Notes under the pieces: generated by a model
Told to the model about the DNA's origin: nothing
Seen by the model: the letters and a program-made list of their open reading frames with translations, nothing else
The model's database searches: none
Source: a virus
IMG/VR virus record: IMGVR_UViG_3300027896_004242
Location: 1 to 21,969 of that record
Length of the DNA stretch: 21,969 nt
Reading direction: 5' to 3' (one strand)
Translations under genes and position numbers: made by a program
Part shown: in pieces, positions 2,777-16,610 of the stretch
Layout: the number at the start of each line of letters is the position of its first letter
Position numbering within the stretch: position 1 is the stretch's first letter

Positions 2777-3823
2777 TTATAAATTATTCTTATTGTTTTT
2801 ATAATACTCTGAAAGCAAATGCTCTTCGCTTGTAATCACAGTATAAAACGGCTCAATATATTGAGCAAATGTACTGCCATATACTGTTAAAAAATCGTCT
2901 TCAATCATTAATTTATATGCATTTCCTCTTTCCTCTTTTAATAATGGCATTTCCAATACCAGCATTGCTTCTTTTGCCTGATCATTAAGTATTGGTTCTC
3001 TTAGATTAACTAATTTGAAGTTTGTTTTTAATCTATCAATATTATTTAATAAATTTTCAAATGATTTTAATGGTTTCTTTTTATTTAAAATTCTTTCTTT
3101 ATTGATTTCATCAGCTCTTTTACAAATTTCTCTTACTGTCATGTGCTTATATTTCAGTTCTGGAAAATATTTTAATAAAGTATCTTCTCCCATTCCTTCA
3201 ATTCCTTTGATATTATCTGAAGTATCGCCACATATTATTTTCAAAATTAATGCATTTGAATAATAATGATTAAAATACATTATATAGTTTGTCTTTGTTA
3301 CTGGTTGCTCAATATTTGGAAATATTATTGTAATATTTAAATCCAATAATTGTGCAAAATCTCTATCATTTGAATAAAGAAAAATTTCTTCTTTGTTATT
3401 ATATTTAAGACAATATGCTGCAATTATATCATCAGCTTCCGTATCATCCACTTCAATTTGTCTTAAAAAAAGTTCTTCAGCATATGCTTTTATACTCTGT
3501 CTTTGCTTTAAAATTGAATCCTGTTTATCTTTTTCTCTGCGTATTTCTGCAGCAGACATTTCTATTTTTTTATACCATTCTTTATTTTTGCGGTTAGCTT
3601 TATATTCTCTGTCAATACGATAACGTTGAACTCCGCCACCCTCACCATCCCACGTAAGGACCACCTTGTTTATCATATGCTCCTTAATTAACTTTCTAAT
3701 AGTGGTAAAAAAACTATAAAGTCCTCCTATATGTCCAAATGATTGTGTATAAACATTTTTAGCACCATGAAATGAACGTTTAAGTAAATACGAAGCATCA
3801 ACCAATAATGTACGTGTTTTCAT
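2777..3823 (-). CDS. rnh: RNase H/FEN-like 5'-3' exonuclease
   Basis: Structure-specific 5' nuclease of the T4 RNase H / Pol I N-terminal domain / FEN-1 family, which removes RNA primers and 5' flaps during lagging-strand synthesis. The metal-binding acidic residues are all visible: D9 (LLVDASYLLK), D59 (LTWDGEGGG), the cluster DDTEADD (126-132), SNDRDF (D153, D155), and GDTSDNIKG (D200, D203), which also opens the helix-hairpin-helix region (IEGMGEDTLLKYFPEL). The conserved basic patch RYRIDREYKANR (67-78) follows the D59 loop. At 348 aa it is close to the family norm (T4 RNase H is 305 aa). Its ATG overlaps the stop of the upstream GIY-YIG gene by 4 bp, so translation may be coupled to that mobile gene. 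Confidence 0.9.
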   Translation of the reverse strand: MKTRTLLVDASYLLKRSFHGAKNVYTQSFGHIGGLYSFFTTIRKLIKEHMINKVVLTWDGEGGGVQRYRIDREYKANRKNKEWYKKIEMSAAEIRREKDKQDSILKQRQSIKAYAEELFLRQIEVDDTEADDIIAAYCLKYNNKEEIFLYSNDRDFAQLLDLNITIIFPNIEQPVTKTNYIMYFNHYYSNALILKIICGDTSDNIKGIEGMGEDTLLKYFPELKYKHMTVREICKRADEINKERILNKKKPLKSFENLLNNIDRLKTNFKLVNLREPILNDQAKEAMLVLEMPLLKEERGNAYKLMIEDDFLTVYGSTFAQYIEPFYTVITSEEHLLSEYYKNNKNNL

Positions 3824-4581
3824 ATTTTTTTTCTTTTAATCATATGCTTACTAAATTCATCAATCCAACCATTTTTATGGGCAACTGAATATGCAGTTAC
3901 TGAATTTAATTTTACATCATTTTTTGTATTATATTTTAGAAATTCTAATCTACACATCTCTTTAGTCCAATAATTACGTGGTTTTATTTTATTTACCATA
4001 TGTAAGCAAATATCATTAAGCCAATTATTGACAAACGCACATTGATATGCACCATTGGCAAATTTTCTAAAATCGCTTCTATTTTTATATTCTAATGCAA
4101 TATTTTCACATTTTTCTTTTGTCCATTTTTTAACACTACCAATACTTCCCGCTTTTACTTTGTTTAATATTTTCCATCCATCATTATTATATTTATTAAT
4201 ATAATCAAATTCTAATTTTACTGCCAAGTCAACAGGAATATATTCAGTTATTTGTATTAATTTTGGAATTAATCCCGTTTTATTTATATGTAAAATAACT
4301 GAATCAGTTTTACTTTTATTTCTATCACGAATTCTTTTATTTATGTTATATGTTATACCAACATATACTGAATTATCTGGAAATTCATAAACATAAACAC
4401 ATTTATTATATCTATTACCAGTTTTTATCATATGCCAACAAATTTCATCTAACCAATTATTTCTTAAACATGCTTCATATGCACCATTTGAATTAATTTT
4501 AAAATCGGTTCGTGTAAAATATTTTAATGCTTCTTCTTGGCATCTTTTTTTATTATTCCAATATTTAAATGGTTTTTTCAT
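3820..4581 (-). CDS. GIY-YIG homing endonuclease with three flanking repeats
   Basis: Free-standing GIY-YIG endonuclease, a selfish gene that cuts homologous DNA lacking it. The catalytic domain spans about residues 60-145: VYVYEF and VYVGIT stand for the GIY and YIG strands, R84 or R86 lies in the following helix (NKRIRDRNK), and E124 (KLEFDYINKYN) is the metal-binding glutamate. The domain is flanked by three copies of a roughly 44-residue helical unit at 8-52, 153-196 and 205-248, each beginning with an aromatic W, containing Y and AY, and ending NGW(L/I)DE...HM or a close variant. These are probably DNA-recognition modules; one copy lies before the nuclease and two after. The gene fills the space between uvsX and the 5' nuclease and overlaps the latter by 4 bp. 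Confidence 0.85.
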   Translation of the reverse strand: MKKPFKYWNNKKRCQEEALKYFTRTDFKINSNGAYEACLRNNWLDEICWHMIKTGNRYNKCVYVYEFPDNSVYVGITYNINKRIRDRNKSKTDSVILHINKTGLIPKLIQITEYIPVDLAVKLEFDYINKYNNDGWKILNKVKAGSIGSVKKWTKEKCENIALEYKNRSDFRKFANGAYQCAFVNNWLNDICLHMVNKIKPRNYWTKEMCRLEFLKYNTKNDVKLNSVTAYSVAHKNGWIDEFSKHMIKRKKI

Positions 4582-8841: not shown

Positions 8842-10767
8842 TTATAATATCTTTTTTAAATTATTATTCATTAATATTTGTACTGCTTCCTTTTTACTCA
8901 TTCCAGTTGAAATATTTCTGTTACTAAGTGTAAGTTTTGCCATTTTTATTTGCTCTTCAGTAATTAAATTATTGATTTTATTATTAACTGATTCATCAAG
9001 TTCATTTTCTTTCTTTTCTGGTTCAGTAGTTTCAGGTTCTTCTTCAGATGTTTCTTCTGGTTCAGCAAATTTCGGCTTTCTGCTTGTATCAGGTACTTCA
9101 TCACCTACATTATGTGGTTTAAATCCAAGTAAAATATCTTCCATGTCTTTATCATCACCTTCGCCACTATTAGCATCTGCGCTTGCATTTGCCTGTGCTG
9201 AATCATTAGGCGTATCTTTTGTTGTATAATATTCTGGGTCTTCTGTAAGATGATCTAATGTGATCTCCAATGCTACCATTGGGTCATCAGTATGTTCCAT
9301 TTCAACTCTCATACCCATTAATATTTGCTCTGGGTCAAATTCAAGTGGTGATTTTCCTTCACCTTTCCCACCGGGTATCATTTCACCTGCTTCTTCTTTA
9401 TCTTGTGCGATTTGTTCAATTTCATCAGCATCTGGTTCATGTGACATACCATCATCAGAATTTGGTAAATGTTTTTCTACATCTGAAGCATGTGGGTCTA
9501 AGCCATGAACAGGTTTTTCATCATTAGTTTCTGGTTCATTATCCATTGGCTGATGCGAAATTTGTTCTTCTCCATCACCTTGTAATCCTTTACGCTCTGT
9601 ATCCATAAATTCTGTATCAGTAACATTATCGTCACCAACTTCAGGTTCTTTACTTTTTTCATCTACTTCGTCATCTTCTATATTTTCACTTAGTTTAACA
9701 GAAGATGTTGGTTTTTTTCTTTTTTTAGGATAATGTTCTTTTGGTTTAAATTTTTTGCCCAGCGGGTCTGGATAATCACCCATTTTTACTTCATCAGCTT
9801 CATATAAAGTTTCTTGAACACCAATTTTTAATGCTTTCTTAATTAATTCCCTTACCTTCATTGCACTATCAAATTTAGCACCGTTAATTATAAATGTACG
9901 TGGTTCACCCTGATATTCAGCAGTAATGCGATATTTTGCATTATCAATGTCTTCAATGTTTCGAACATTAACACCGATTTCTTTAAGTGCATCAACAAGT
10001 ACATATTGATAAGTTACACTTAACTTTGATTTAAATTTACTACCTGCATCACGTGCAGCTTGTGAATAATGTAAAATACTATTCATATCTTCAGTAACTG
10101 TAGTAGGTTTAACCATTGGTTGCATTTTTAATTTCATTGCTGGTTGATCTATTTCATTTACTGGTGCAAATTTATTTAACTCAGGTGCTTTTACTCTTAT
10201 TATAGGATTTATGGGTTTTTCATCACCATATGCTGCGTTTGTTTGCATTCTTTCAGGAGTTCCACCAAATGGATATGAATCAATTTTCTTAATTGCATCT
10301 TCATAAAGACTATCTACTGGTTGTTCTTCTTCAACATCAATATATTTATCAATTACATCAAATAATTCATTTCCATATTTTGCATTAAATTGTTGTAATC
10401 CTTTTTCATCCATTTCAACTGATTCATCATTAGTTGTTGAATCAAAAGCAAAACTAGTCATTACAACGTCATTGACATTAAATACACCATCCTGATCACC
10501 GCCTTTTGCATTTACTTTAAATATAAACACAATATCATTGCCTTGTTTGTCTTTACAAACTAATTCAACATAACTTTGATCACCCTTTGCTTGACTATTA
10601 CTACGTACAATATTAAGTTGTCCATTTTTAAGTTGGGTAAATGATAAATCAAGTACTGCTTGTGGATTAAAACTTTGTCCAAATCCTTCATTTAAATTAA
10701 CTTTGGTAACTCCCTGAAATATTTCAGCGAATCTTTCTTTACTACCAATTGGTTTAAATACTTTCAT
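8842..10767 (-). CDS. Acidic head-internal-type protein with leader and DUF5661-like segment
   Basis: A 641-aa, very acidic, mostly disordered protein, probably packaged in or scaffolding the head. Residues 1-28 form a leader (MKVFKPIGSKERFAEIFQGV then VNLNE) that is clearly related to the N-terminus of the next upstream gene product. The ending LNE fits the (L/I)xE cleavage rule of T4-type prohead proteases, and further LYE sites occur near linkers (SLYEDA, TLYEAD). Two small folded parts are likely: about residues 30-170 (beta-rich, SYVELVCKDKQGNDIVFIFK) and about 230-320 (SVTYQYVLVDALKEIGV). Near residues 475-515, GMRVEMEHTDD, LEITLDHLTEDPEYYT matches the DUF5661 signature as I remember it from phage proteins. 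Long Asp/Glu-rich linkers surround it, and a short helical domain ends the protein. It is last in the virion operon, before a strong terminator. Confidence 0.7.
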   Translation of the reverse strand: MKVFKPIGSKERFAEIFQGVTKVNLNEGFGQSFNPQAVLDLSFTQLKNGQLNIVRSNSQAKGDQSYVELVCKDKQGNDIVFIFKVNAKGGDQDGVFNVNDVVMTSFAFDSTTNDESVEMDEKGLQQFNAKYGNELFDVIDKYIDVEEEQPVDSLYEDAIKKIDSYPFGGTPERMQTNAAYGDEKPINPIIRVKAPELNKFAPVNEIDQPAMKLKMQPMVKPTTVTEDMNSILHYSQAARDAGSKFKSKLSVTYQYVLVDALKEIGVNVRNIEDIDNAKYRITAEYQGEPRTFIINGAKFDSAMKVRELIKKALKIGVQETLYEADEVKMGDYPDPLGKKFKPKEHYPKKRKKPTSSVKLSENIEDDEVDEKSKEPEVGDDNVTDTEFMDTERKGLQGDGEEQISHQPMDNEPETNDEKPVHGLDPHASDVEKHLPNSDDGMSHEPDADEIEQIAQDKEEAGEMIPGGKGEGKSPLEFDPEQILMGMRVEMEHTDDPMVALEITLDHLTEDPEYYTTKDTPNDSAQANASADANSGEGDDKDMEDILLGFKPHNVGDEVPDTSRKPKFAEPEETSEEEPETTEPEKKENELDESVNNKINNLITEEQIKMAKLTLSNRNISTGMSKKEAVQILMNNNLKKIL

Positions 10768-10779
10768 GTTTTTATTTTA

Positions 10780-11226
10780 TTATTCAAAAATTATTGGATT
10801 TTTTGCACCAAATTCTCTCATAAATACACCAGCAAGAGCATTAGCTTCATTTTCCTGCTCACTACCAGTAGCGTTTGAATCTGGATTTATATTTCCTTTT
10901 AAACGTTGCATATGATGAATTAATTCATGTGCTAATGTTCTTAATACATCTGCTAAATTTCTATTCACCGCAACAACTCTCAATTCATTTTTTTCTGGTG
11001 TGTATTTACCAAAAGAATGCATACCAGCAGCTTCTTTTTCATCATACGATATTGCAATATTTGGCATATTATCACCAAATTTAAGTTTTTCTTTTATAAA
11101 TTCAATAAATTGTTTAATAACCTCATTTTTCTTCTCTATTGGAAGAACATTTTCATTAAGATTATTAACTCTCTTCATCATTTCAAAGAGACGTTCAGGA
11201 GTACCGTATGCATTAAAAACTTTCAA
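10780..11226 (-). CDS. Leader-tagged HExxH zinc metalloprotease
   Basis: A small putative zinc peptidase of the gluzincin type. H100-E101-L-I-H104 (LAHELIHHMQRLKG) supplies two zinc ligands and the catalytic Glu. SEQENEANALAGVFMREF (122-139) supplies the third acidic ligand (E125 or E127) in the E-x-x-A context of ImmA/IrrE- and SprT-like enzymes. Residues 1-25 are not part of that fold: they repeat the leader of the 641-aa protein and end in NLNE. I chose the TTG at 11226 because only this start gives the shared MKVF...G..ER leader; it lies 2 nt after the upstream stop. After removal of the leader a compact 123-aa enzyme remains. It could cut virion proteins during maturation or be injected to act on host proteins. 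There is no membrane or secretion signal. Confidence 0.75.
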   Translation of the reverse strand: MKVFNAYGTPERLFEMMKRVNNLNENVLPIEKKNEVIKQFIEFIKEKLKFGDNMPNIAISYDEKEAAGMHSFGKYTPEKNELRVVAVNRNLADVLRTLAHELIHHMQRLKGNINPDSNATGSEQENEANALAGVFMREFGAKNPIIFE

Positions 11227-11228
11227 AA

Positions 11229-12026
11229 TTATATCTCGTTAAAACTATTTTGTACATCAATCTTAGATTTTTGTGGTAAGTCATCAAAGTCTGCAACAAA
11301 TGTACCATCTGGTAATTCATTTATACCTTTTTCATGTTGTTTTTCTCTTTCATCCGTAAACCAATTACCTTTCCAAAAATCATTTAAATTAAAATAAAAA
11401 GGATAACTTACGTTCTTTTTACTCATAAGTTTTTCAGTATTAGTTGGTTCACGAACTTCTTCAACTTCAGCACTAAGAGATTTTGATTGCATATTTAAAG
11501 CCTGAACAGTTGCATTAAGACTTTCTAATTGATCATGAATGCTTTTCATTGCTTCAATATTATGCTTAATAATTTCGTTTTGTATATTATCAACTTCTTG
11601 TGCTGGAGCAGGAGCACCAATACCCATTTCATCACCCATCGGATTTATTTGTTCACCACCTTCTTCTGGCGGTGGAAGTTGATCATTGCCACCAGTTTTA
11701 TCAAATGCTGGTACTGGAGCATCAACAGGAGCACCTGCTTGTGGTACATCAGCGTTTTGTGGTTGATCATTTGAAGGCGCAGGAGGTTCTTGACCATCTG
11801 GTTTAGGTACATCTTCTTGATTACCTGCTTCCATTGTTAATCCCTGACTCGTAGGAACAGGTTGACCATCCTTCGTAGCGTAAATGCTATCTGGAACTTT
11901 ATCATATTCCTCTGAATCATTGACCAATGGACGATATTTAGGAGACTCGTTGATCTTATAGTCAACACGATGTTTTATCTTTCTAAGATGTTCCTCAAAA
12001 AGATTGCTCTTTTTTTCATTTTTCAT
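11229..12026 (-). CDS. Virion-type protein, proline-rich with coiled coil
   Basis: A 265-aa protein of unrecognised family. Residues 1-28 are basic and helical and end in DYKINE, again an (I/L)xE site of the kind cut by T4-type prohead proteases. About residues 50-150 are Pro/Gln/Asp/Gly-rich and disordered (PPAPSNDQPQ, PPPEEGGEQ). A coiled coil follows at about 155-205 (NEIIKHNIEAMKSIHDQLES and heptads after it), then a short folded C-terminal part with YPFYFNLNDFWKGNW and DLPDGTF-like turns. The segment SIYATKDGQPV resembles VFVTKDGKQL in the 61-aa protein next door, hinting at a shared small motif. Its stop is 2 nt from the TTG of the metalloprotease gene, so the two are probably translated together. 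It is probably a head core or internal protein by context. Confidence 0.65.
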   Translation of the reverse strand: MKNEKKSNLFEEHLRKIKHRVDYKINESPKYRPLVNDSEEYDKVPDSIYATKDGQPVPTSQGLTMEAGNQEDVPKPDGQEPPAPSNDQPQNADVPQAGAPVDAPVPAFDKTGGNDQLPPPEEGGEQINPMGDEMGIGAPAPAQEVDNIQNEIIKHNIEAMKSIHDQLESLNATVQALNMQSKSLSAEVEEVREPTNTEKLMSKKNVSYPFYFNLNDFWKGNWFTDEREKQHEKGINELPDGTFVADFDDLPQKSKIDVQNSFNEI

Positions 12027-12923: not shown

Positions 12924-13818
12924 ATATTAATTTATTTACATATTTCAAAACACTTTCTTCCAACTCATGAAATGGTTTATTATAACCAGCAATTCTTAAT
13001 TTATTTATTTTAGCCTCAGTAAAATACTGATATTTATCTCTTATTTTAATTGGGGTGTCAATATACTCAATTTTTGGCGGTTTTGCAAGACTTAAAAAAA
13101 CTGCTTTGGCAACATCATTAAAACTACGTGCTTTTCCAGTACCAACATTATATATTCCAGATAATGGCTTTTCTGTACCCATAAATATACAAACATCAAC
13201 TATATCATCAATATAAACAAAATCTCTTTTTTGTTCACCATCCTTATAATCAGAACGATGCGATTTAAATAATTTCACTTTATCACTTATAGTAGCTTGA
13301 TTAGTAAAATGAAATATTGTTGAAGCCATTTTACCTTTGTGTGCTTCACCATAACCATAAACATTAAAAAACTTCAGACCGTACCAATTTGGTGGACAAT
13401 TTTCTTGTGTTTCTACCCAAATATCAAATTGTTGTTTTGACCAACCATATGGATTAAGTGGTTTTAAATTTATGATATCTTTTTCATCATCAAAACCTTT
13501 TTCACCATCACCATATGTAGCTGCGCTAGAAGCATAAATTAATGGTATTTGATTATAAGTACATAAATTCCAGATAAATATTGAACATTCAACATTATAT
13601 TTGTCAAACTTTTCTCTATCCATTTCTGTGGTATCGGTAATTGCTCCCAAATGATAGATACAATCAATTTCTTTTTCATGTACTATTAACCACTGATAAA
13701 TTGATTCCAATGATTCATTTTTAACGTCAAGACTAATAACACCAATATTACCCTGTCTTTGCAATTCTGCAATAAGGTTTTTACCAATAAATCCTTCACC
13801 ACCAGTTACTACTATCAT
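12910..13818 (-). CDS. hldD: ADP-L-glycero-D-manno-heptose 6-epimerase
   Basis: NADP-dependent short-chain dehydrogenase-type epimerase that converts ADP-D-glycero- to ADP-L-glycero-D-manno-heptose, the last step of the pathway. The Rossmann loop is TGGEGFIG (5-12). The active site has S98/S99 (YASSAATYGDG) and Y124-x3-K128 (NPYGWSK). Several stretches are diagnostic of HldD rather than general UDP-sugar epimerases: YGDGEKGFDD (102-111), FFNVYGYGEAHKGKMAS (150-166) with K161 at the family's second catalytic Lys, DGEQKRDFVYIDDIV (193-207), NVGTGKARSFNDVA (224-237) and IRDKYQYFTEA (259-269). The length of 302 aa equals the family norm and no residue is missing, so the enzyme should be active. 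Its ATG overlaps the tnpB stop (ATGA), and its end overlaps the 219-aa gene by 14 bp. Confidence 0.92.
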   Translation of the reverse strand: MIVVTGGEGFIGKNLIAELQRQGNIGVISLDVKNESLESIYQWLIVHEKEIDCIYHLGAITDTTEMDREKFDKYNVECSIFIWNLCTYNQIPLIYASSAATYGDGEKGFDDEKDIINLKPLNPYGWSKQQFDIWVETQENCPPNWYGLKFFNVYGYGEAHKGKMASTIFHFTNQATISDKVKLFKSHRSDYKDGEQKRDFVYIDDIVDVCIFMGTEKPLSGIYNVGTGKARSFNDVAKAVFLSLAKPPKIEYIDTPIKIRDKYQYFTEAKINKLRIAGYNKPFHELEESVLKYVNKLIYETW

Positions 13819-14981
13819 GAACTACTAATTAATTTAGTTTCAGAAGTCATTACTCCCACCAATGTGGGCAGTTCGTTCTGATTTTCTTGTATACGTCCCG
13901 TACACAAATAATTTTTTAAAGCAAAATTTTTAATATTTATTGCCGCATTTATATCCCTATCATGTGTTGTATTACAAATTTTACAAGTCCATTCACGGTC
14001 TTTTAATGTTAGTTCTTTATTAATGTTACCACAAACATGGCAAGTCTTAGAACTTGGTTCAAATCTACCTATTTGCAAAATATTTTTGCCATACCATTCT
14101 GCTTTATATTTAAGCATATCAACAAATGTACTCCAACTAACATCACTTATTGACTGCGTCAAACAGTGATTTTGTAACATGCCATTAATGTTAAGATTTT
14201 CAATGGCAATACAATCGTGGTTCTTGATTAATTGTATTGAAATCTTATTTAAAAAATCTTTTCTTTGATTAGTAACTTTTTCATACAAAATTGCTAATCT
14301 ATGTTTTGTTTTCTTACCTTTATATTTTGAATATTTACTTTGTATGTATTTTAGTTTTGATTGAGCACTACGTAAATATTTGGGATTATCGAATTCTTGT
14401 CCATCGGAAGTTACAAGAAAAGATTTAATACCCAAATCAATACCAATAGTACAATTACTTTTAATAGTCGTTTTAATTGGATTTGCAACATTGTTTTCAA
14501 CGAGTATTGAAACAAAATATTTTCCTGTTGGTGTTTTACTTATAGTTGCTTGCTTGATGTTTCCTTTAAATGTTCTGTGTAAAATGATTTTAATACCTCT
14601 TTTAAATTTAGGAATTATTAATTTATTGTTTTCAATAATCGCATTTTGTGGTATATTAAATGATTGTTTTACACTTTTCTTTTTAAATTTTGGAAAGTCT
14701 GCTTGTCCTTTATAAAACTTTGTAAAAGCATTGTCTAAGTGTGTTATTGATTGTTGTAATGATTGCGCATTTATTTCTTTAAGCCAAACACATTCTTTCT
14801 TTAAATCTGGAAGTTGTTTTATTAAATCAAAACAATCTAAGTTAACCTTATTGCCAGCATAGGCGGTTTGTTTTGTTTCTAAAGCTAAGTTATATACGAA
14901 CCTACAACTACCAATATGTTTATTTATTAGTTCTTGTTGTGCCTTTGTTGGCATAATTCGATATTTAAATGATTTTAACAT
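13815..14981 (-). CDS. tnpB: TnpB, IS200/IS605-type RNA-guided nuclease
   Basis: RNA-guided DNA nuclease of the TnpB/OrfB family (Cas12 ancestor). The N-terminus has the helical WED/REC pattern (KSFKYRIMPTKAQQELI, GSCRFVYNLAL). All three RuvC residues are present: D182 (TIGIDLGIKSF), E261 (IAIENLNINGM) and D343 (DRDINAAINI). The four zinc cysteines are C314-x2-C317 and C333-x2-C336. At 388 aa it is full length, so it is probably active. I start it at ATG 14981; a TTG directly before it is less likely. No TnpA is present. The stop overlaps the hldD ATG by 4 bp and the start is 52 bp past the rfaE2 stop, so it sits cleanly between two genes of one pathway. The element's right end must therefore lie inside the coding sequence or be lost. 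Confidence 0.9.
   Translation of the reverse strand: MLKSFKYRIMPTKAQQELINKHIGSCRFVYNLALETKQTAYAGNKVNLDCFDLIKQLPDLKKECVWLKEINAQSLQQSITHLDNAFTKFYKGQADFPKFKKKSVKQSFNIPQNAIIENNKLIIPKFKRGIKIILHRTFKGNIKQATISKTPTGKYFVSILVENNVANPIKTTIKSNCTIGIDLGIKSFLVTSDGQEFDNPKYLRSAQSKLKYIQSKYSKYKGKKTKHRLAILYEKVTNQRKDFLNKISIQLIKNHDCIAIENLNINGMLQNHCLTQSISDVSWSTFVDMLKYKAEWYGKNILQIGRFEPSSKTCHVCGNINKELTLKDREWTCKICNTTHDRDINAAINIKNFALKNYLCTGRIQENQNELPTLVGVMTSETKLISSS
13855..13907 (-). ncRNA. Candidate omega-RNA hairpins in the tnpB 3' end
   Basis: Two hairpins lie in the last 95 bases of tnpB: a 9-bp stem with one G-T pair and a 3-nt loop (13887-13895 with 13899-13907), and CCCAC/GTGGG with a 4-nt loop (13855-13859 with 13864-13868). 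In IS200/IS605 elements the guide RNA scaffold comes from the tnpB 3' end and the right end, so this is where such structure is expected. The scaffold boundary and guide cannot be set from sequence. Confidence 0.35.
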
Positions 14982-15032
14982 CAAATATAAATACTTAAAT
15001 TTAAAGAAAAATTATATTTCTATAAATAACTA

Positions 15033-15461
15033 TCATAAATTCTTTATTTTATCAATAATATTTGTTGTTGATCTCATATCTACAGGATAATAAACTACCC
15101 CGTATTTTGAGTTTTCACTGCCAATTACTTCTTTATCCTTATATTGATCACCAACTATCATAACATCAATCACCAAATGTCTTATCAAATTTCTGAGATC
15201 GTCATCAGTATCAAATATAAATACTTCATCTACCATCTTCAAATTCTTCATTATTGTTAACCGAGTATTAAGATCATTAATAGGTCGTTTATCACCTTTC
15301 AATCTTTTAACACGTTCATCACTGTCAAGTCCAACAAACAATTTATTTGTTGGGTCAAGAATAGGTGGAACATCACCCGGTTGGTAATTCTTTGCATATC
15401 TCAATAAATTAATATGTCCTGTATGTAAGATGTCAAAACATCCATTTGTCCAAATATTCAT
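15033..15461 (-). CDS. rfaE2: Heptose-1-phosphate adenylyltransferase (RfaE2/HldE C-domain)
   Basis: Cytidylyltransferase-fold enzyme that joins D-glycero-beta-D-manno-heptose 1-phosphate to AMP from ATP, giving ADP-heptose. The nucleotide-binding signature is NGCFDILHTGH (6-16; H13-x2-H16). GLDSDERVKRLKGDKRPIND (44-63) carries the family's sugar and nucleotide contacts, and VIGSE (112-116) and STTNIIDKI (131-139) complete the pattern. It is a stand-alone 142-aa domain, whereas E. coli fuses it to the kinase as HldE; here the kinase is a separate gene 1.5 kb upstream. An insertion of about 12 residues (QPGDVPPILDPT) after the first helix is unusual. The start ATG overlaps the stop of the HAD-nuclease gene by 4 bp. 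Confidence 0.9.
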   Translation of the reverse strand: MNIWTNGCFDILHTGHINLLRYAKNYQPGDVPPILDPTNKLFVGLDSDERVKRLKGDKRPINDLNTRLTIMKNLKMVDEVFIFDTDDDLRNLIRHLVIDVMIVGDQYKDKEVIGSENSKYGVVYYPVDMRSTTNIIDKIKNL

Positions 15462-16408
15462 AATTCCTTTTTACGTTTAAAACCCAAAGAATTTTTATTT
15501 CCCATTAACTTTTCACTTATTTTATTTCTTGTTTCTTCATTAAATTTTCTTCCTTTATTGGCAATAGAAATTTTTCTTCTAGTCTCATCAGATAACGTTT
15601 TTCCAACTTGTTTTCCTTTATTTGCTTCGCTAATTTTTTTCTTATGTTCTTCCGATAACGTCTTTCCTTTATTAAAATCTCTTAATTTTTGCTTTGCTTC
15701 TTCGGATAAATGTCTCCCCTTGCTTGTTTCACCAATTTTTTTTATATGTTCTGACGATAATTTCTTTCCTTTATTCGATTCACTAATTTTTCTTTTATGC
15801 TCTTCAGAATATTTCATTCCCAAATTACTATCAGCTTTTTTTCTATTATTAAAAAATGGATTTATTAAATCTAAATAATGTTGTTCATACATTATTAATT
15901 GATTTCTTTTGCATCTAAAAATTATTGAAAATTGTAAGTCTGATTCACCATACTTATAATAATGATTTTGTAATTTTTGAGAATGATGTCTATTGTTTCG
16001 CAAATCATTCAAATGCTTATTCCATCTTACATGAATATTAATCGCACTTCCGATATAAATCCTTTCTGGTTTAACTTTAGATTGTATTTGATATATTCCA
16101 GTAATTTTATTAGTCTCACTAAAAAATATATCTTTAAAATTCAATGACTTATCATCTATACAAATATCATAAGAAGGTTTACCTGTTTCAAGCCAATGAT
16201 ATAAACAATTCCAATCATTTAATTGTTTTTTTGTTAATTCAATCCAATCAATACCACTATTACCACCTCTTGCGGTCCAATAAACAATAGTGTGACCTTC
16301 ATCATAAAGTTTATTGATTTTAGCAATAGCATCATAATCTGGTTTGGCATTATCGTATCCACCTTCAGTATGACAAATTGTACCGTCTATATCAACATAT
16401 ATCAACAT
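15458..16408 (-). CDS. HAD phosphatase fused to GIY-YIG/NUMOD3 homing nuclease
   Basis: A 316-aa in-frame fusion. Residues 1-96 are a complete small HAD-superfamily phosphatase: DIDGT (D6, D8), T45 in YWTARGG, K77 in GKPSYD, and D85/D86 in CIDDK. Residues 102-190 are a GIY-YIG nuclease: GIYQIQ, IYIGSA, R128 (VRWNKHL) and E175 (MYEQHYLD). Residues 199-310 are about six NUMOD3 DNA-binding repeats of roughly 18 residues (for example LSEEHKKKISEANKGK). HAD proteins of this type usually end soon after the IDDK motif, so the nuclease appears to have joined at the natural 3' end. I chose ATG 16408 because it starts directly at the HAD strand and has AGGAG 6 nt upstream; the frame is open further up. 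It is flanked by overlaps: 17 bp with the 72-aa gene and 4 bp with rfaE2. Confidence 0.85.
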   Translation of the reverse strand: MLIYVDIDGTICHTEGGYDNAKPDYDAIAKINKLYDEGHTIVYWTARGGNSGIDWIELTKKQLNDWNCLYHWLETGKPSYDICIDDKSLNFKDIFFSETNKITGIYQIQSKVKPERIYIGSAINIHVRWNKHLNDLRNNRHHSQKLQNHYYKYGESDLQFSIIFRCKRNQLIMYEQHYLDLINPFFNNRKKADSNLGMKYSEEHKRKISESNKGKKLSSEHIKKIGETSKGRHLSEEAKQKLRDFNKGKTLSEEHKKKISEANKGKQVGKTLSDETRRKISIANKGRKFNEETRNKISEKLMGNKNSLGFKRKKEL

Positions 16409-16610
16409 AACAAACTCCTGATCTTTCTTCAAATACTTGTAATATTTCAATATTATTAAAATCCAATTCCCAATCAAATTTACCGTATCTGTTTAATATG
16501 TTCCAGAGCCAAACACGACATTCTTCTTTTGTTGGCTCAGTTTCAAAACTAAATACTTTATAATCAATATAGTTCTGATTTAAACGATATTTAATTCTAT
16601 ATGCTTTCAT
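16392..16610 (-). CDS. Hypothetical 72-aa protein
   Basis: A small soluble protein of unknown family with several aromatic residues (CRVWLWNILNRYGKFDWELD) and no recognisable motif. Its end overlaps the start of the HAD-nuclease gene by 17 bp, and its ATG overlaps the stop of the cupin gene by 4 bp, which supports real translation. AAGGAG lies 10 nt before the ATG, inside the cupin gene. A regulatory or adaptor role in the sugar cassette would be a guess. Confidence 0.6.
   Translation of the reverse strand: MKAYRIKYRLNQNYIDYKVFSFETEPTKEECRVWLWNILNRYGKFDWELDFNNIEILQVFEERSGVCYVDIC
16415..16419 (-). promoter_or_regulatory. Shine-Dalgarno that sets the HAD start
   Basis: AGGAG on the minus strand lies 6 nt before ATG 16408. 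It supports that start over the longer open frame reaching 16477. Such a site is rare in this window, where most starts have only A/T-rich leaders. Confidence 0.4.

Follow-up and report, generated by a model that had tools for sequence, protein, structure and literature searches.

Phage T4 sorts a small set of internal proteins (IPI, IPII and IPIII) into its head by means of a capsid-targeting sequence (CTS), a short N-terminal propeptide that ends in a protease motif with Glu at P1 and is cut by the prohead protease gp21. The internal proteins of T-even phages are highly diverse, with the CTS their only common part (PMC3012670; PMC9026906). Residues 4 and 7 of the IPIII CTS matter for targeting and residues 8 and 10 for processing, and a T4 CTS with Asp at residue 10 still targets its protein but is no longer processed (PMC9026906). 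Head proteins of SPN3US and phiKZ are also cut C-terminal to Glu, and the N-terminal 15 residues of SPN3US gp53 and gp54 are identical (PMC5694885). Here we describe a leader of comparable layout in a 21,969-nucleotide stretch of viral DNA (IMG/VR virus record IMGVR_UViG_3300027896_004242, positions 1 to 21,969; hereafter the window), where it begins two adjacent, otherwise unrelated proteins of 641 and 148 residues and recurs on many proteins of related phages. From sequence comparison we consider it quite probable that this leader is a CTS-like capsid-targeting propeptide of the head, removed by a protease that the phage itself encodes; that the proteins are packaged, cut and injected is inferred.

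The leader resembles the T4 CTS in being a short N-terminal segment on diverse proteins that ends in a prohead-protease motif with Glu at P1, and the phage group of the window likewise has a gp21-type protease and a gp23-type major capsid protein (MCP). The T4 CTS, however, is 10-20 residues long and found on few proteins, whereas the leader here has 25-28 residues with a K.RLFE.M core and is carried by 31 families in our census. SPN3US and phiKZ differ in their cleavage motif (A-x-E, or S-x-E in phiKZ, rather than (L/I)NE) and in having several propeptides of more than 100 residues instead of a short leader. The three window genes concerned, with the third encoding a 265-residue neighbour, are divided as follows.

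10767-8842, minus strand: 641-aa protein, starting MKVFKPIGSKERFAEIFQGVTKVNLNE
10687..10767, minus strand: its leader, residues 1-27, with a predicted cut after E27 (leader profile score 53.6 bits, E 2e-15)
8842..10686, minus strand: its predicted mature part, residues 28-641 plus stop codon (from Pfam, orthologues and AlphaFold2)
11226-10780, minus strand: 148-aa protein, starting MKVFNAYGTPERLFEMMKRVNNLNE; the start codon is TTG in the window and ATG in relatives
11152..11226, minus strand: its leader, residues 1-25, with a predicted cut after E25 (leader profile score 50.2 bits)
10780..11151, minus strand: its predicted mature part, an HExxH zinc-metallopeptidase-like domain (from phrog_87, orthologues and AlphaFold2)
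12026-11229, minus strand: 265-aa protein, starting MKNEKKSNLFEEHLRKIKHRVDYKINE
11946..12026, minus strand: its N-terminal segment, residues 1-27, a different putative leader ending in INE
11229..11945, minus strand: the rest of the 265-aa protein, a Pro/Gln/Asp-rich linker, a coiled-coil-like segment and a conserved C-terminal domain with no function assigned

Local alignment of the 641-aa and 148-aa starts gives a score of 46, compared with a maximum of 40 among 20,000 shuffles, and this pair scores highest among all pairs of window N-termini. Comparison of the regions after the leader confirmed that the two proteins are otherwise unrelated. Their common NLNE motif, placed at residues 25-28 of both in the initial annotation, in fact occupies residues 24-27 of the 641-aa protein and 22-25 of the 148-aa protein. 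That annotation had also given one leader to all three proteins, which is true of this pair only: the 265-aa start scores 15 and 19 against the other two leaders, inside the shuffle range, and was therefore rejected as their kin. What it has in common with them is just a basic, probably helical start and an INE at residues 25-27 (KINE, ending at E27); it is a different, putative leader. The hydrophobic moment of the leaders was suggestive at best.

The same leader recurs, at N-termini only, across a much wider set of proteomes. Larger related contigs, two of them of 322 and 326 kb, were fetched via the tail sheath of a relative, and their open reading frames (ORFs) were called mechanically. 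Two hidden Markov models (HMMs) were built, one for a long form of the leader (MKxFxxxGSKERLFEMMxxVNKVxLNE) and one for a short form (MKKDxKQRLFEVMGRLDKTFKPxLNE), and run on 2,749 ORFs of related contigs together with shuffled and reversed decoys. All matches scoring above the best decoy (13.5 bits) begin at residues 1-13. A census that combined these contigs with two IMG/VR pattern scans on the helix core yielded 145 distinct leader proteins from viral contigs, 141 of which carry the leader within their first 15 residues; in the other four it lies at residues 16-61, possibly through start-codon miscalls. Clustering by blastp (E 1e-4) places the post-leader regions in 31 families, while the leader keeps a length of 25-28 residues and the conserved core K-x-R-L-F-E-x-M/F. 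No published account of these leaders was found in the open-access literature searched.

Orthologues of the window proteins retain the leader. The 148-aa protein is carried by 12 close viral contigs, and in relatives both it and a neighbour of roughly 500-830 aa keep their leaders. Across 14 orthologues, the 148-aa family has G8, L13, F14, V20 and E25 as invariant leader positions; for the 641-aa family, compared over 15 orthologues, these are M1, E15, V20 and E27. The 265-aa family has an invariant Y23 and E27 in eight orthologues, with S, T or A as the residue next to E27. None of the three window families thus shows any variation at the terminal Glu. In relatives, one more gene, absent from the window, lies between the 265-aa and 148-aa genes, and its product of about 160 aa carries the short leader form M.K.DKRKLFEVFEKVNKINLKE.

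Such shared N-termini might be functionless remnants of gene duplication or recombination, as the adjacency of the genes and the 86% DNA identity of two leaders on contig G014 would suggest. Those two leaders are nearly identical and begin neighbouring proteins whose later parts show no significant similarity, which also fits a modular leader. In the window, though, DNA identity between the leaders falls to 67%, three of the 12 residues in common being encoded by different synonymous codons, and the leader is found on 31 families and many contigs. It is also kept across orthologues of the 641-aa protein although the mean column identity of that family is only 30%. Conservation of the leader thus exceeds that of the rest of the protein, and we regard this explanation as very improbable.

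Because the pattern scans required the helix core alone, they provide an unbiased test of the (L/I)NE ending. Within 20 residues after the core, [LIV]NE is present in 28/36 and 20/25 of the leader ORFs selected without regard to LNE, compared with 4.5% and 2.9% of control windows. This count replaces an earlier one of [LIV]xE after the core, which came out too high because MxE occurs within the helix and because the HMMs themselves select for LNE.

A processing machinery that would fit this ending is encoded by relatives of the window phage, which have a gp20-type portal, TerL, a gp23-type MCP and a gp21-type protease. The protease matches the T4 gp21 structure 5jbl (E 6e-12) and keeps equivalents of His85 (LNHPP aligned with EADHPD) and Ser140 (GVSSRG aligned with GISSRG), the catalytic residues of T4 gp21. 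It occurs together with leader genes on contigs G013, G014, G017, G018 and G020, so the gp21-like protease gene anticipated in the initial annotation does exist in this group. Just ahead of the conserved domain, its N-termini contain LxE-type sites that are compatible with autoprocessing: LTE↓S, LNE↓N, IAE↓N, ITE↓G and INE↓S (the arrow following Glu). The relatives' MCP matches T4 gp23 structures. At the position aligned with the T4 gp23 cut site, FLTE65↓A, MINE↓S or MINE↓A is found in all six MCPs of the group and IVSE↓A in Flavobacterium phage immuto. Together with the modular N-terminal recurrence and the LNE-blind test, this protease and MCP motif support the original idea of a head-targeting and processing tag.

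Several observations weigh against this interpretation. Alignment of the leader with the T4 CTS (MKTYQEFIAE in IPII and IPIII, MKTFKEF... in IPI) scores within shuffles, and the leader HMMs give at most 1.1 bits on IPI-III; since homology is undetectable, the leader is an analogue of the T4 CTS and not a proven member. [LIV]NE is lacking in 8/36 and 5/25 of the LNE-blind leaders, all but four having a relaxed [LIVF]xE, and the P1' residues vary among leaders. Near N-termini in general, [LIV]NE alone is not significantly enriched in the jumbo-phage pool (1.2-fold, p=0.053) and is weakly enriched in the proteome of the Lak megaphage Lak-B1 (1.8-fold, p 5e-4); LNE by itself is therefore unfit for listing packaged proteins. 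The leader genes of the window lie outside a head cluster, beside replication genes. Finally, a Pfam S77 search found no protease in the 22-kb window, a fragment without head genes, nor in contigs G001-G012. The head region is missing from these contigs too, and the two negatives are uninformative.

The leaders without (L/I)NE would suit a leader that targets the prohead but mostly stays uncut, with (L/I)NE serving as a helix cap or part of a binding site, and in T4 targeting and processing are indeed separable (PMC9026906). Against such a leader speak the terminal Glu, invariant in the three window families while the residues beyond it vary, and the gp21 homologue of related phages, whose catalytic residues are intact. 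The window cluster adjoins gp32-like, RecA/UvsX-like and exonuclease genes and not head genes. This position could instead indicate that the leader is no head-targeting propeptide but a recruiter of a chaperone, or a signal for another destination such as the tail or baseplate, the membrane or a phage compartment inside the cell. Other leader genes, however, flank TerL (G013 and G018) or lie near the MCP gene (G015 and G020), the leader ends in the motif found at the aligned MCP cleavage site, and its layout, short, N-terminal and with (L/I)xE at the end, fits that of T4. We therefore judge another destination unlikely and an uncut leader slightly less likely still, and continue to favour a cleaved head-targeting propeptide.

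Intein-like inserts are present in two head genes of the relatives. In the G020 gene for the gp21-type protease (L164:13524-15428), an insert of about 390 residues directly follows the catalytic HPD; its Pfam Intein_splicing match (5e-4) is below cut-off, and its position would make splicing necessary for activity. The T4-type portal gene of G017 (L149:1450-4701) also has an intein-like insert (Intein_splicing 2e-7).

Immuto (Immutovirus) resembles the window group in having annotated gp20, gp21 protease and gp23 and in possessing shared N-termini of its own that end in (L/I)xE, for example MENFDLKKFLVEN, although its leader sequences are unlike those of the window. MENFDLKKFLVENKLTxNSKxL is common to four of its proteins (NC_055915 at 1803, 103806, 117631 and 118632), and two others share MKKQILSEQFxRMQxLAGIITES. 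As immuto is a cultured phage, its proteins with shared N-termini offer a candidate set of head cargo from an isolate.

Few of the domains carried behind the leader could be identified: DUF5661, GP88, an AAA_33/zeta-toxin-like kinase, DUF4313 and the HExxH protein of the window. DUF5661 occupies residues 480-515 of the 641-aa protein (Pfam 1.6e-8) and is not mentioned in the open-access literature searched. The same protein has an N-terminal, mainly beta domain (about residues 31-140) and long acidic linkers of low confidence; its AlphaFold2 model as a whole is of low confidence, with a mean predicted local distance difference test score (pLDDT) of 56. The mature part of the 148-aa protein matches the phrog_87 metallo-protease (3.5e-6), and H100, E101, H104, E125 and E127 are invariant in its 14 orthologues, giving an HExxH motif and a downstream Glu ligand. 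Its match to Pfam M78 is below cut-off, and Foldseek found only weak IrrE/PprI-like matches to its AlphaFold2 model (best E about 1e-2). This putative cargo is metallopeptidase-like, while its assignment to a particular family (M78/IrrE-like) is weak. In the same model the leader forms a helix at residues 10-25 with low confidence (pLDDT about 50), whereas the domain that follows at residues 30-148 is mostly modelled with confidence, an arrangement that suits a detachable leader.

A second type of leader is found in the Lak megaphages. When compared with 50,697 phage records, the short leader gave matches in nine Lak-B genomes only, at an E of about 3 that is not significant alone. We translated Lak-B1 with TAG as Gln and analysed it by all-against-all comparison of N-termini and with an HMM. 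A leader of the form KKxLYESIMKSVSKTVKKKLNE stands at the N-terminus of 12 proteins from 10 families; two further HMM matches lie away from the N-terminus of the called ORFs. The Lak and window-group leader types align with a score of 57, against a maximum of 41 in 50,000 shuffles, for a pair chosen after the search. The N-terminal region of the Lak-B1 Gp23 MCP (PF07068 3e-32) reads AHNTAKLNE↓DAF, and the start of its S77 protease (PF03420 1e-14) reads ...PLTLNE↓S. One of the leader proteins has a lysozyme domain and another is a sigma-70 factor:

198324-199337 of Lak-B1: sigma-70 factor with leader MKLNEKKALYESIMKSVSKTIRKKLNE

Lak-A and Lak-C retain the leader region of this sigma factor, their proteins being about 75% identical to it along the entire length, and most non-Lak sigma factors among the matches listed align only from about residue 50. 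It is quite possible, though we advance the idea tentatively, that a modular head-import code, consisting of a basic helix followed by (L/I)NE, loads a large and mixed enzyme cargo in both Bacteroidota jumbo phages and Lak. This cargo would include the window metallopeptidase and the Lak sigma-70 factor, the latter being injected along with the phage DNA so that early transcription can begin.

Two other features of Lak-B1 termini were observed. A 450-aa ORF (L243:3135-4487) has a C-terminal Lak-leader-like segment, KKKALYESIMSKVAKTIKRKLQLI, without NE there; C-terminal processing is known for T4 Alt (PMC9026906). A second shared N-terminus, MNKxIKxLVESLFDDE, is present on about five proteins (e.g. 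L245:26288-28204 and L239:21945-23015).

Elsewhere in the window, three further minus-strand genes were noticed.

3820-4581, minus strand: GIY-YIG endonuclease gene, flanked by RecA/UvsX-like and 5'-3' exonuclease genes
13815-14984, minus strand: IS605 OrfB/TnpB-type gene (Cas12f1-like TNB domain) with sugar-nucleotide genes on either side; four Lak-B1 ORFs have a similar-looking N-terminus
15458-16477, minus strand: ORF that starts like a HAD-type phosphatase gene and, without a change of frame, goes on as a GIY-YIG/NUMOD3 homing endonuclease; its counterpart in contig G002 is only 95 aa long

We propose that, as the prohead assembles, the basic, probably helical leader, attached to unrelated cargo, binds the scaffold core or the inner shell. 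Cleavage behind the terminal (L/I)NE by a gp21-type prohead protease would then release the mature cargo within the head, next to the DNA, and part of this cargo may, more speculatively, be injected. Cargo encoded in the window would comprise the HExxH metallopeptidase-like 148-aa protein and the DUF5661-containing 641-aa protein, and probably their 265-aa neighbour with its own INE-ending leader.

What giant Bacteroidota phages deliver in their heads is largely obscure, since most of these phages are uncultured and most of their genes unannotated. A leader that can be recognised in sequence gives a named list of candidate head cargo, so far 31 families, with about 12 proteins in one Lak genome. 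If our interpretation is true, the leader is a packaging tag that, like the T4 CTS, would allow chosen proteins to be loaded into these heads, and it would offer a sequence handle on the head contents of uncultured giant phages.

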